A DNA stretch of 64,000 bases from contig NZ_WQMS01000001.1 of the NCBI RefSeq assembly GCF_009753715.1, forward strand, positions 1-64,000, given 5' to 3'. The notes below the pieces were generated by a model, which saw nothing but the letters and a program-made list of their open reading frames with translations, was not told the origin of the DNA and did no database searches. The DNA is from Sphingomonas horti. Lineage in GTDB: Bacteria > Pseudomonadota > Alphaproteobacteria > Sphingomonadales > Sphingomonadaceae. Shown here in pieces: positions 30,344 to 34,410 of this stretch (its first letter is position 1; each line of letters starts with the position of its first letter). The translations under genes and the position numbers were made by a program.

Positions 30344-31590
30344 CCAAGCATCCCCACGAACTTCTCGAACAAGTAACAGCTATCCTGTGGCCCCGGGCTC
30401 GCCTCCGGGTGATATTGCACGCTGAACGCCGGGTGGTCGGTCAGCTCCAGCCCGCAGTTGCTGCCATCGAACAGCGACACGTGAGTCTCGCGCGCATTTT
30501 CCGGCAGGGTTTCGCGTTCGACCGCGAAGCCGTGGTTCATGCTGGTGATCTCGACGCGGCCGTCCTCCAGCCGCTTGACCGGGTGGTTGGCGCCGCGATG
30601 CCCCTGGAACATCTTGGTCGTCTTCGCCCCGATCGCGAGCGCGAGGAGCTGGTGGCCAAGGCAGATGCCGAACAGTGGCTTGTCAGTTTCCAGCATCTTC
30701 TGGATGACGGGCACCGCGTATTCAGCGGTCGCGGCCGGATCGCCGGGGCCGTTCGACAAAAAGAAGCCGTCCGGGCTTTGCGCCATCACGTCGTCGAACG
30801 TCGCGGTGGCGGGGAGGACGGTGACGCGCGCGCCGGCTTTCACCAGGTTGCGGAAGATGTTGTGTTTGGAGCCATAGTCGATGGCGACGACGTGGGGCAC
30901 GTTCCCCTCCCGCTTGCGGGAGGGGCTAGGGGTGGGAACAGCCTTTAGGTCCGCGCGGGATTCAGGCGCCTGCCCACCCCCGGCCCCTCCCGCAAGCGGG
31001 AGGGGAGAAGTGTACCCGCTCCCCAGCTCCCAAACCCCGCCTTCCCAGCCGTGATGCGCCTCGCAAGACACTTCCTTCGCCAGGTCCATTCCCTCCAGCC
31101 CCGGCCAGGCGCGCGCTTTCGCCAGCAGCGCCTCAACGTCGAACCGGCCGTCGGCGCGATAGGCAATCACCCCGTTCGGCGCCCCGCCTTCGCGAATCCG
31201 ACGCGTCAGCGCGCGCGTGTCCACGCCCGCCAGCCCGATCTTCCCGCGCGCCTTCAGCCAGGAGTCGAACCCCTCGGCCGCGCGGAAATTGGAGGGTGCG
31301 GTCACGTCCTCGCGGACGATGCAGCCCAGCGCATGGGCGTGGTTCGCTTCCACATCCTCATGGTTCGCGCCGACATTGCCGATGTGCGGAAAGGTGAAAG
31401 TGATGATCTGCCCTTCGAACGAAGGGTCGGTCATGATTTCCTGGTAACCGGTGATCGCGGTGTGGAAGCACACTTCGCCCACCGCCTCGCCTTCCGCGCC
31501 GAATCCGCGGCCCCAGATCACATCGCCGGAGGCCAACACCAATACCCCCGTCGCTCCTTCGGGTGCGCGCGTGGGGGTGGCGTCGGCCAT
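30340..31590 (-). CDS. carA: Carbamoyl-phosphate synthase, small (glutaminase) subunit with in-frame repeat insertion
   Basis: The protein has 416 residues. The N-terminal small-subunit domain contains HTAITGYQEIMTDPSFEGQI and GVDTRALTRRIREGG. The class I glutaminase domain has the nucleophile Cys in FGICLGHQLLALAIG, near residue 308, and the His-Glu pair in QYHPEASPGP. Between the domains, about residues 193-230, lies a Gly/Pro/Ser-rich stretch (TSPLPLAGGAGGGQ through PTPSPSRKREGN). It is encoded entirely by an inverted pair of palindromic repeats and is absent from the family pattern. The frame is preserved and all catalytic residues remain, so it is probably active. Confidence 0.96.
   Translation of the reverse strand: MADATPTRAPEGATGVLVLASGDVIWGRGFGAEGEAVGEVCFHTAITGYQEIMTDPSFEGQIITFTFPHIGNVGANHEDVEANHAHALGCIVREDVTAPSNFRAAEGFDSWLKARGKIGLAGVDTRALTRRIREGGAPNGVIAYRADGRFDVEALLAKARAWPGLEGMDLAKEVSCEAHHGWEGGVWELGSGYTSPLPLAGGAGGGQAPESRADLKAVPTPSPSRKREGNVPHVVAIDYGSKHNIFRNLVKAGARVTVLPATATFDDVMAQSPDGFFLSNGPGDPAATAEYAVPVIQKMLETDKPLFGICLGHQLLALAIGAKTTKMFQGHRGANHPVKRLEDGRVEITSMNHGFAVERETLPENARETHVSLFDGSNCGLELTDHPAFSVQYHPEASPGPQDSCYLFEKFVGMLG
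30901..31012. repeat. Inverted pair of family A palindromes inside carA
   Basis: Two ~34-base units (30904-30937 and 30971-31005) face each other. Each has 10-base arms CCCCTCCCGC and GCGGGAGGGG around TT or AA, followed by a G-rich tail of the form GGGGTGGG. A ~33-base linker separates them. The same units bracket the DUF559 gene at 32150-32568. Confidence 0.9.
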
Positions 31591-31685: not shown

Positions 31686-32135
31686 ATGATTCGAGACGAC
31701 ATCAAAGCCGCACTGGTCACCGCGATGAAGGGCGGCGACAAACAGACCACCGCCACGATCCGCCTGATCCAGGCCGCGATCAAGAACCGCGACATCGAAG
31801 CCCGCACCGGCAAGGCCCCGGACGACGACGTGCTGGTGTCGGAGGTGCTGCAGAAGATGGTCAAACAGCGCCGCGAATCGATCACGATGTACGAACAAGG
31901 CGGTCGTCCGGAGCTGGCGTCGGCGGAGGCCGGGGAAGTGGCCGTGATCGAACGCTTCCTGCCCAAGATGATGGACGAAGCCGAGACGAAGGCGGCCATC
32001 GAGGCGATCAAGGCGGAAATCGGCGCGTCCAGCGTCAAGGACATGGGCCGCGTCATGGCCGAGCTGAAGACCCGCCACGCGGGCAAGCTGGACATGAGCA
32101 AGGCATCCGGGCTGGTGAAGGGGGCTTTGGCGTAA
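31686..32135 (+). CDS. yqeY: GatB/YqeY domain protein
   Basis: This 149-residue helical protein matches YqeY throughout: MIRDDIKAALVTAMKGGDKQ, then MVKQRRESITMYEQGGRPEL, AVIERFLPKMMDEAE, and SVKDMGRVMAELKTRHAGKL. The domain resembles the tRNA-binding tail of GatB; its own role is not settled. It is divergent from carA by 95 bases. In related genomes it directly precedes dnaG, but here a DUF559 cassette intervenes. Confidence 0.93.
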   Translation: MIRDDIKAALVTAMKGGDKQTTATIRLIQAAIKNRDIEARTGKAPDDDVLVSEVLQKMVKQRRESITMYEQGGRPELASAEAGEVAVIERFLPKMMDEAETKAAIEAIKAEIGASSVKDMGRVMAELKTRHAGKLDMSKASGLVKGALA

Positions 32136-32149
32136 AGCGCATAACGACT

Positions 32150-32182
32150 CCCCTCCCGCTTGCGGGAGGGGCTGGGGGTGGG
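32150..32182 (+). repeat. Family A palindrome, left flank of the DUF559 gene
   Basis: Arms CCCCTCCCGC and GCGGGAGGGG around TT, then CTGGGGGTGGG. Its G-rich tail ends three bases before the DUF559 ATG and supplies the ribosome-binding purines. Confidence 0.9.
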
Positions 32183-32185
32183 ATC

Positions 32186-32575
32186 ATGCCTAAATGGCGC
32201 AGGCGCAATACGGAAAGGGCACGGCAGCTCCGCCGCGAAGCCACCCCGGCTGAACGCCACCTTTGGCAGTACCTCAACAAGAGCCAGCTCGACGGCTTCA
32301 AGTTCAGTCGCCAGATGCAGATTGGCCCCTTCTATTGCGATCTGCTCTGCCGGACGGAGGGCCTGGCGATTGAGCTCGACGGGTTCAGCCACGACATCCA
32401 GCCCGGCAAGGACAAGTGGCGGGACCGCATTCTCGCGGAATATGGGATTCGCGTGCTCCGGTTCACCAACGAGGACGTATTTCAACATACGGAAGGCGCG
32501 CTGATTGAGATCAGGCGCGCTTTAGGCTCGGGCCCGCCCCCGGCCCCTCCCGCAAGCGGGAGGGGAGAAGAGTGA
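32186..32575 (+). CDS. DUF559 family endonuclease-like protein (VSR-like PD-(D/E)XK fold)
   Basis: The protein has 129 residues. The family start is RARQLRREATPAERHLWQYL. The nuclease core includes IGPFYCDLLCRTEGLAIELD, where the Asp and the ExD pair match PD-(D/E)XK metal ligands, then RDRILAEYGIRVLRFTNEDV. DUF559 is related to very-short-patch-repair endonucleases; activity is not established. The last ~15 residues (GPPPAPPASGRGEE) are encoded by the right palindrome. The ATG at 32186 uses the G-rich tail of the left palindrome as its ribosome site. Its stop overlaps the dnaG start (GTGA). Confidence 0.88.
   Translation: MPKWRRRNTERARQLRREATPAERHLWQYLNKSQLDGFKFSRQMQIGPFYCDLLCRTEGLAIELDGFSHDIQPGKDKWRDRILAEYGIRVLRFTNEDVFQHTEGALIEIRRALGSGPPPAPPASGRGEE
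32531..32568 (-). repeat. Family A palindrome, right flank of the DUF559 gene
   Basis: Inverted copy of 32150-32182: a C-rich tail, then arms CCCCTCCCGC and GCGGGAGGGG around AA. The end GGAGGGGAGAAGA lies just before the dnaG GTG and acts as its Shine-Dalgarno sequence. Confidence 0.9.
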
Positions 32576-34410
32576 GCCTCTCCCCCGCCTTCCTCGACGA
32601 GCTCCGCACGCGCACCCTGCTGTCCGCGCTCGTTGCGAAAACCGTGAAGCTTCAGCGCAAGGGGCGCGAGTTCGCGGCCTGCTGCCCGTTCCACAACGAG
32701 AAGACGCCCAGCTTCTACGTCAACGACGAGAAGGGCTTCTACCATTGCTTCGGCTGCGGCGCGCATGGCGATGCGATCCGCTGGATGACGGACCAGCGCG
32801 GCCTGCCCTTCATCGATGCTGTGAAGGAACTCGCTCAGGCGGCCGGCATGGAACTTCCCGCTCCGGACGCCCGCGAGGCGGCACGGGCGGAACGCGCCAG
32901 GTCGTTGCACGACGTGATGGCGGCGGCGGCGGCGTGGTTCGAGGAACAATATAACGGCCTGCCGGGCGCGGCCGCGCGCGCCTATGTCGAAAGGCGCGGC
33001 ATCACCGACGCGACGCGCAAGGCTTTCGCTCTGGGCTATGCGCCGGACTCAAAGACCGGCCTCCGGCGCGCGCTCGCCAAATTCGGCGACGCGATGCTGG
33101 TCGAGGCCGGGCTGCTGATCGAAGTCGAAGGCAAGGAGCCGTACGACCGCTTCCGCGACCGGCTGATGATCCCGATCCGCGATCCCCGCGGCCGCGTGAT
33201 CGCGTTCGGCGGGCGGATCATCGGCCAGGGCGAACCCAAGTACCTCAACTCCCCCGACACCCCGCTCTTCGACAAGGGCCGCACGCTCTACAATCTTGAC
33301 TGCGCCGCGCCGGCCGCGCGCAAGTCCGGGCGGATGATCGTGGTCGAAGGCTATCTCGACGTGATCGCCCTCGCCCAGGCCGGCATCGAGGAAGCCGTTG
33401 CCCCGCTCGGCACCGCGCTCACCGAATTCCAGATCGAGCGGCTGTGGCGGCAGGTCGACGCGCCTTTGCTCTGCTTCGACGGCGACGCCGCCGGGCAGAA
33501 AGCCGCCTTCCGCGCTGCGATCCGCGCCCTGCCCGGCCTCGCCCCTGGCCGGAGCCTCTCCTTCCTGACCCTGCCCTCAGGCCAGGACCCGGACGACCTC
33601 GTCCGCTCCGGCGGCGCGCGCGCGTTCGAAAGCCTCGCCGCTGCGCCCGAGCCTTTGGTCGATCGCCTCTGGAACCACGAGCTCGCCGAGCCGCTCGCCA
33701 CGCCCGAGCAGCGCGCAGGTCTCCGCAAGCGGCTGAACGAGCTGGCCGCGGCGATCGCCGATCCCGATGTCCGCCAGCAATACCAGGCCGAGTTCCGCGA
33801 GCGATTCGACACGCGCTTCCTCCAGCGCCCGGCCTTCCAGCGCGGCCCGCGCCCGCCGTTCCGGCCCGGTACCGGCTGGCAGCCGCCGCGCCCGATCTCG
33901 CCCGAGGCGAAGGGCGTCGGCTCGGCAGGCATCGACCGCCGGCTGCTGAAGGGCGTCGTCGCCGGCCTGCTCCGCTACCCCGACCTGCTCGCCCGCCATG
34001 CCGAGGCCCTGCACGGGCTCCAGGCCAGCGACCCAGCGATCGCGCGCCTCCTAGACGCGCTGGTTGATCTCGCGCTGGAGGAGCAAGCGCTTGATACGGA
34101 GCGGCTTGGCACCATATTGCGCTCCAGCGAGTTCGACGCGTTAGCGAGGGATTTACTGCGGGCCGACAGACTACGCTTCTCGTTCACGAAGAAGGATGCG
34201 GACCCGGAGCGTGCCAGGACCGACCTTGCCGAGGTGATCCAGGCGATGGTCGAGCAACCGGAGATCGAGGCGGCTTTGCGATCGGCCACGGAACGCTTCA
34301 TGCGCACCATGGACGATAACGACCGGCTTGAGCAGCAACGCTTGCGGGAATTGCGCGACGAGAATGCACGGCGGCTTGCAAATCTGATGCAGGACGACGA
34401 AGGCGCTTAA
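32572..34410 (+). CDS. dnaG: DNA primase
   Basis: The protein has 612 residues. The N-terminal zinc ribbon has CCPFHNEKTPSF and YHCFGCG. The TOPRIM core has VVEGYLDVIALAQAG and the metal-binding CFDGDAAG. A C-terminal helicase-interaction region follows a Pro-rich linker (RPPFRPGTGWQPPRP). It synthesises RNA primers at the fork. The start is GTG at 32572, overlapping the DUF559 stop; its ribosome site comes from the right-hand palindrome. An upstream native start cannot be seen, so the cassette appears to have taken over dnaG translation initiation. Confidence 0.97.
   Translation: MSLSPAFLDELRTRTLLSALVAKTVKLQRKGREFAACCPFHNEKTPSFYVNDEKGFYHCFGCGAHGDAIRWMTDQRGLPFIDAVKELAQAAGMELPAPDAREAARAERARSLHDVMAAAAAWFEEQYNGLPGAAARAYVERRGITDATRKAFALGYAPDSKTGLRRALAKFGDAMLVEAGLLIEVEGKEPYDRFRDRLMIPIRDPRGRVIAFGGRIIGQGEPKYLNSPDTPLFDKGRTLYNLDCAAPAARKSGRMIVVEGYLDVIALAQAGIEEAVAPLGTALTEFQIERLWRQVDAPLLCFDGDAAGQKAAFRAAIRALPGLAPGRSLSFLTLPSGQDPDDLVRSGGARAFESLAAAPEPLVDRLWNHELAEPLATPEQRAGLRKRLNELAAAIADPDVRQQYQAEFRERFDTRFLQRPAFQRGPRPPFRPGTGWQPPRPISPEAKGVGSAGIDRRLLKGVVAGLLRYPDLLARHAEALHGLQASDPAIARLLDALVDLALEEQALDTERLGTILRSSEFDALARDLLRADRLRFSFTKKDADPERARTDLAEVIQAMVEQPEIEAALRSATERFMRTMDDNDRLEQQRLRELRDENARRLANLMQDDEGA

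Follow-up and report, generated by a model that had tools for sequence, protein, structure and literature searches.

Association of a DUF559 gene, a predicted nuclease, with inverted REP palindromes in Sphingomonas horti and its relatives

Why does a small DUF559 gene stand between two inverted palindromes at the yqeY-dnaG junction of Sphingomonas horti, and has its product anything to do with the palindromes around it? The locus lies in a window of 64,000 nucleotides (the whole stretch of DNA that was analysed) from this genome, here called G000. The gene order is carA (minus strand), yqeY (31686-32135, plus strand, from the ORF list and its translation), DUF559 and dnaG. (The gene names were taken from translations; yqeY and dnaG also served as search queries.) The DUF559 gene (PF04480; 32186-32575, plus strand, 129 aa) was defined by the ORF list, a profile match and an alignment. 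It is flanked by two units of a palindrome type designated family A, and a DUF559 gene between such units is referred to as a family-A cassette. The left REP unit (32150-32182, plus strand) consists of the palindrome CCCCTCCCGCTTGCGGGAGGGG (32150-32171) and the inward tail CTGGGGGTGGG (32172-32182). The right unit (32533-32565, minus strand) is inverted, with the palindrome at 32544-32565 and the inward tail, GGGGGCGGG on the minus strand, at 32533-32543. Both units were identified from sequence and folding. The ATG of the gene at 32186 is three bases beyond the left unit. The right palindrome precedes the end of the stop codon (32575) by ten bases, thus the C-terminus of the protein is translated from the repeat. 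The original prediction had claimed the packaging between inverted palindromes with these two spacings and the translation of the last residues from the right repeat, and both claims held. The dnaG ORF (32572-34410, plus strand) has its listed GTG start at 32572, overlapping the DUF559 stop codon. The end of the right repeat (32560-32575 region) reads GAGGGGAGAAGA directly before this GTG, so the cassette may possibly supply the ribosome-binding site of dnaG.

The window unit, ACTCCCCTCCCGCTTGCGGGAGGGGCTGGGGGTGGG, folds into a 9-bp stem with a 4-nt loop. Compared with shuffled sequences, hairpin folding gave z -2.3 for the left and z -1.5 for the right unit. Inspection of sequence and folding revealed no unpaired GTAG tag beside the palindrome of the window unit. 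Similarly, an unpaired CGTC (or TGTC, CCTC) tag followed by a short CCA-like tail was absent from the folded window units, which carry an 11-nt G-rich tail there. A feature not included in the original prediction is a gene-less inverted pair (REPIN) at 30904-31005 (no strand assigned; sequence, translation and folding), which shares the ends of the cassette and lies in frame inside carA, where it is translated as SPLPLAGGAGGG...TPSPSRKREG. Folded single-stranded, the whole pair makes one long hairpin (z -8.3 compared with shuffled sequences). Judging from translations, seven genomes (G000, G001, G120, G004, G020, G023 and G090) carry REP pairs, belonging to two families, in frame in one loop of CarA; the DNA was examined for G000, G001 and G004.

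The window protein matched the PF04480 profile with an E value of 2.3e-30 (105.1 bits against a curated cut-off of 20.6; positions 2-108 of 109). In an alignment of eight DUF559 members including the window protein E17, D46, E57, D59 and H63 were invariant, giving the pattern E, D, E-x-D, H (residue numbers are domain positions counted from base 32204). By analogy these are the putative catalytic residues, and in this form the earlier claim that PD-(D/E)XK residues are retained held. The structure closest to the domain model (pLDDT 87.9) was 3hrl, an endonuclease-like DUF559 protein of Neisseria (Z 16.1), followed by I-Bth0305I (3r3p; Z 11.6, rmsd 2.6 over 89 residues). The corresponding E values in sequence profile searches (hmmsearch) were 4e-37 for 3hrl and 7.7e-4 for 3r3p. 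Vsr (1cw0) matched with Z 9.5 (rmsd 2.4 over 94 residues). This score is level with those of Toxoplasma mitoribosomal chains (Z 9.6 and 9.3), indicating that the shared fold alone proves no function. From fold and residues together the DUF559 protein is likely to be a nuclease; this is a model-based prediction and the activity is inferred.

To assess how general the arrangement is, flanking was scored as the best local match between the 300 bases upstream of a gene and the reverse complement of the 300 bases downstream. The threshold (a score of at least 34) was picked after the controls had been seen. The controls were shifted positions, 900 bases away, and other ORFs (naive calls, at least 100 aa) in the same loci; the shifted positions lie mostly in coding DNA, an objection which the other-ORF control answers in part. 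In Sphingomonadaceae 136 of 161 DUF559 domains reached the threshold and 25 did not, compared with 0/316 shifted positions and 4/172 other ORFs. The comparison with other genes had been set beforehand as a test of the original prediction, and the outcome that would have refuted it was not met. In an earlier subset of the family 99 of 112 DUF559 loci were flanked, against 0/222 shifted positions. Because the units are palindromes, a direct (non-inverted) comparison also gave scores of at least 34 in 64 of these 112 loci. Mismatched loci share units, the 75th percentile of their score being 33. DUF559 was present in 103 of the 119 family genomes, with up to ten matches within one genome, and a draw of 192 genomes from the class contained it in 63. 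Outside the family 17 of the 28 best alphaproteobacterial loci were flanked (0/56 shifted). A draw from the phylum added 11 alphaproteobacterial loci, of which 4 were flanked, and 15 non-alpha loci, of which 7 were (0/52 shifted), and 63 of 75 named GTDB loci were positive (1/277 shifted), including loci of Nostoc, a Chloroflexota MAG and a Geobacter MAG. Loci were chosen mostly by best score first. Contig ends led to the exclusion of 5/166 loci in the family set, 2/30 in the class set and 5/80 in the named GTDB set. The class, phylum and GTDB loci partly overlap earlier ones (for instance, L296 is the same locus as L034), therefore these tallies are not independent.

In the usual cassette the outer part is a C-rich palindrome and the inner part a G-rich stretch, and the distance to the gene is small and typical of the clade. 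As in the window, 113 of the 132 assessable DUF559 ORFs end within or past the right repeat. A G4-type motif with four runs of G was detected on the inward strand upstream in 68, downstream in 73 and on both sides in 60 of the 136 flanked cassettes; the controls gave 0/540 windows and 5% of shuffles, and for GIY-YIG cassettes (see below) the values were 0 and 1 of 27. Since half of the cassettes lack the motif, the G-quadruplex potential remains a mere observation.

Each of the five DUF559 genes of S. horti lies between inverted palindromic units (scores 60-92), and the unit sequences differ. Across 99 loci from 51 genomes repeat similarity tracked protein similarity with a rho of 0.28 (permutations: mean 0.00, sd 0.05, maximum 0.16). 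When each gene was compared with its closest DUF559 relative in another genome, the REP similarity was 0.548, as opposed to 0.336 with paralogues shuffled within each genome (300 permutations, sd 0.027, maximum 0.427; 26 genomes, 74 loci). As the shuffled values fall below the observed one, genome composition does not explain the specificity. The repeats are thus specific to the gene that they flank: protein clade matches repeat type, paralogues included. The exception is the tail letter of most repeats sampled in S. horti.

The family-A palindrome occurs at 59 places in the 3.35-Mb S. horti genome when up to two mismatches are allowed, compared with 0 for the pattern read backwards, and the listed copies are mostly arranged in inverted pairs. 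Within the genus 41 and 44 palindromes were counted in the genomes with the cassette (G000 and G001), against 0, 0, 2 and 1 in those without it (G002, G003, G004 and G005; G003 is 80% complete). In the 119 family genomes the median number of extra palindromes was 12 for the 14 genomes with a family-A cassette and 0 for the 16 DUF559-less genomes (p=3e-5). The remaining 89 genomes, which may include unread family-A cassettes, had a median of 1 (p 5e-5 against the cassette genomes). No phylogenetic correction was applied in these tests. Eight of the 25 family genomes with at least 10 palindromes, and five of the seven with at least 26, have a known family-A cassette. A renewed search of the DUF559 genes in 17 palindrome-rich genomes revealed a single family-A cassette (G115, counted among the eight). 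None was found in the other 16, including G110 (45 palindromes) and G094 (34), which have one DUF559 gene each; the renewed search left out a few loci that scored weakly or lay at contig ends. Such genomes may have lost their cassettes, their palindromes may be used by a related DUF559 enzyme, or there may be another mover; all three remain possibilities. Within the genus, repeat number follows the cassette cleanly; at family level it does so only loosely. A profile search of the S. horti genome gave no match to PF01797 (Y1_Tnp). Matches to PF01797 were found in 22 of the 119 family genomes. Ten of the 14 family-A cassette genomes fall outside these 22, one of them being G102, in which 81 palindromes were counted.

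Forty repeat regions of G000 and G001 yielded 45 units, among them 35 pairs whose palindromes are 61-84 bases apart. Mean pair identity was 0.85 for left units and 0.34 for spacers (0.30 when shuffled), one orthologous pair being an exception. There was no sign of target duplication, as direct repeats of 3 bp or longer were absent from the assumed edges of the 35 REPINs. The four bases adjoining the units at these 35 sites had no word in common. Copying of the spacer from its own flanks was also considered; the mean score was 10.4 with own flanks and 10.0 with another locus, giving no sign of it.

Only three of 20 sampled G000 repeat regions had a counterpart among the G001 repeat regions (L394/L409, L400/L408 and L404/L034; a few units at contig ends were omitted from this comparison). 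At four orthologous G000/G001 sites, with aligned flanks ~86-96% identical, three G001 REPINs face no family-A unit in G000, and at the fourth site one G000 unit faces a different palindrome type in G001. No clean empty site was found among the four. A family-A unit in one genome with a different palindrome at the orthologous place of the other was seen for the first unit of L424 and for L395/L429. The repeats have been turned over between these two close species. The tails also differ: the variable letter was A in 26, T in 7 and other in 3 of 36 G000 tails, and A in 3 and T in 31 of 34 G001 tails. The commonest sampled G000 tail is GGGGAGGG (26/36), as opposed to GGGGTGGG/GGGGCGGG in its own cassette. 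With T in the left and C in the right cassette tail, most sampled G000 repeats do not match the cassette of their own genome, and the original prediction is corrected in this respect. A lost second cassette could possibly account for the mismatch, which is otherwise unexplained.

The claim that the cassette splits the yqeY-dnaG junction also held but calls for a correction. Among the 38 distinct junctions in the loci compared (classes were assigned by reading the sequences) 11 are occupied by a DUF559 cassette and 7 by a GIY-YIG gene with other palindromes on either side, and 11 measure only 3-113 bp; the rest comprises one gene-less pair (L092), one decayed-looking DUF559 end (L071) and 7 with other longer sequence. 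Junctions without the cassette thus exist, and the second refuting outcome, all relatives being alike, was not met. In L071 (G116:C11:45119-48565) the 260-bp junction carries the apparent decayed C-terminal end ILRFPNGAGLRNVEGVVAEIEQ, and in G036, which has the same genus code as G116, the junction is only 3 bp. In L087, L089, L090 and L091 a junction of ~790 bp looks like conserved coding sequence unrelated to the cassettes. A single origin of the junction cassettes was rejected: the 12 junction DUF559 genes require 6 label changes, compared with 11.7 in shuffles. The tree is poorly resolved, and at least 2 of the changes are forced by starred branches. The junction is a recurrent site, in which the DUF559 genes are clustered without forming one clade, and several arrivals are likely.

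For all seven genomes with a junction GIY-YIG gene (G004, G023, G051, G113, G028, G072 and G121) the PF01541 places beside yqeY agreed with this assignment. The seven cassettes (L069 at G004:C25:139246-142692, L077, L078, L080, L083, L094 and L097) have inverted CGTC-like palindromes. Inverted flanks were detected in 22 of 30 fetched GIY-YIG loci; for the combined set the count was 27 of 37, compared with 1/67 shifted positions. The units of 19 of the 22 flanked loci were like TCCGTTCGTCCTGAGCTTGTCGAAGGACG, resembling the CGTC class, and those of the other three like GTCATTCCCGCGAAGGCGGGAAT (types assigned by reading of the sequences).

Linkage, specificity, the copy-number tie, turnover and the lack of a Y1 transposase match in G000 are shown. 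The explanation that we favour, with moderate confidence, is a single unit made up of the DUF559 gene and its pair of inverted repeats, in which a REP-associated nuclease drives or licenses dispersal of the repeats; the causal step is inferred. The DUF559 enzyme, a PD-(D/E)XK protein that has the fold of Vsr and I-Bth0305I and is unrelated to RAYTs, would do for its REPs what RAYT transposases do for GTAG REPs. It would recognise its own REP with hairpin and G-rich tail, possibly in single-stranded form, and nick or cut beside it or at new sites, whereupon repair or replication would put REP ends at the new site. The near-constant spacing, the unrelated spacers and the lack of target duplication point, by inference, to a repair-type reaction laying down two ends and not to DDE-type insertion of a fixed element; placement of the ends by repair or template switching would fit better than insertion of a constant element. 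Fast decay of spacers between homogenised ends might also have produced the pattern. The analogy to REP-associated tyrosine transposases, proposed in the original prediction, held up; spreading of the repeats by the enzyme itself is still an inference. It counts against this explanation that neither movement nor cleavage has been observed. Further points against it are the 25 of 161 family DUF559 genes below the threshold, the lower share of flanked loci in the phylum draw, the palindrome-rich genomes without a family-A cassette, the tails of the G000 repeats, the lack of phylogenetic correction in the count tests, and the experiments on Caulobacter VsrA described below. The recount of palindrome-rich genomes lowered our confidence in it and raised that in the passenger model described below.

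According to the passenger model another activity (Y1/RAYT, an IS transposase, slippage or recombination) moves the palindromes, and DUF559 genes were merely caught between REPs. In its support, no family-A cassette was seen in the loci read from 17 of the 25 palindrome-rich family genomes, some Y1 transposase is present in 22/119 genomes, and the commonest sampled G000 tail is unlike the cassette tail. However, G000 lacks PF01797, as do most of the family-A cassette genomes (10/14, including the palindrome-rich G102), and a matching repeat in clade after clade would not be expected. We consider this model unlikely. The same verdict applies to a homing-type drive, in which the nuclease would cut repeat-less sites, repair would copy in the cassette or REP, and occupied sites would be immune. 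The REPs would then be the footprint of target protection and not a transposed element, and the association with the cassette would be kept. In its favour, the homing endonuclease I-Bth0305I is the best structural match after the DUF559 protein 3hrl. Two places have been struck more than once: of 38 yqeY-dnaG junctions 11 have DUF559 and 7 have GIY-YIG cassettes, and carA, as read from translations, holds REP pairs from two families in seven genomes. On the other hand, no common four-base word adjoins the units at the 35 REPIN sites, and spread to dozens of sites is unlike classical homing.

Two further explanations carry still less weight. DUF559 could be a Vsr-type mismatch-repair enzyme with incidental or structural palindromes, as suggested by the Vsr fold (Z 9.5) and by Caulobacter VsrA, which belongs to DUF559 and has an SOS effect linked to a cytosine methyltransferase (PMC12907096). 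This would leave the flanking in 136/161 cases, the clade-matched repeats, the up to ten DUF559 matches per genome and the repeat number in the genus unexplained, and it is very improbable. Less probable still is a role of the palindromes as immobile terminators or insulators next to small genes. The units do form hairpins (z -2.3 and -1.5, and -8.3 for the carA pair), but the pattern occurs in just 4/172 other ORFs, units are also found in frame inside carA, and neither the clade-matched sequence nor the copy-number link would be accounted for.

REPINs have been called one of the commonest bacterial repeat families (PMC8049555). The system described here resembles REPIN-RAYT systems in that a gene lies between inverted REPs, several repeat types in one genome each have their own gene, and gene-less inverted pairs are dispersed, with copies inside genes (PMC3733652, PMC8049555). 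It differs in the enzyme, which is DUF559 with a PD-(D/E)XK-type fold and not Y1 (HUH), in the absence of a GTAG tag, in the G-rich inward tail and in the sampled spacers, which are unrelated between copies. With the CGTC REP super-family (PMC3733652) the repeats share the palindromic structure, the arrangement mostly in inverted pairs, the mainly alphaproteobacterial distribution and the occasional location inside genes; stem and loop of the window unit are within the CGTC range (8-9 bp, 4-5 nt), whereas the CGTC tag is missing. Di Nocera 2013 (PMC3733652) stated that CGTC repeats have no association with transposase genes and tied only the GTAG class to a mover (RAYT); here CGTC-like units flank GIY-YIG genes. 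I-Bth0305I belongs to the class named EDxHD. It has a homologous catalytic domain and fold (Z 11.6, E 7.7e-4), but the window gene is free-standing between REPs and not in an intron or intein, as judged from the ORF layout. Vsr and Caulobacter VsrA are similar in fold (Z 9.5) and, for VsrA, in having a DUF559 domain; the neighbours of the window gene, in contrast, are carA, yqeY and dnaG. The 2026 VsrA paper (PMC12907096) connected the protein by experiment with SOS induction in a methyltransferase mutant and interpreted this as mismatch repair; a term check (leaving out the word 'REP') found no mention of palindromes, inverted repeats or transposition in it. In Legionella repeated recombining segments carry a transposase and a DUF559 gene, and flanking repeats are not described in the relevant passages (PMC12308824). 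A keyword check of the RepRanger paper gave no match. An association of DUF559 or GIY-YIG genes with REPs was not found in the open-licence literature searched. The association is of the REP-plus-enzyme kind, with a different enzyme, is undescribed in that literature, and makes a case for a wider class.

A bolder reading is that bacteria have a general class of REP-associated nucleases with at least two unrelated folds: DUF559, whose C-rich palindromes carry a G-rich tail, and GIY-YIG, whose REPs are CGTC-like. Both kinds would make and spread their own palindromes by repair without a transposase. The recount weakened this reading too, and on balance we are inclined slightly to doubt it; if true, it would account for REP families reported without a transposase. 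As a caution, fold alone is insufficient to call DUF559 genes mismatch-repair genes. DUF559, a widespread family whose function is unknown, is now tied to its own REP families and gains a testable function, and orphan REPs gain a candidate mover.
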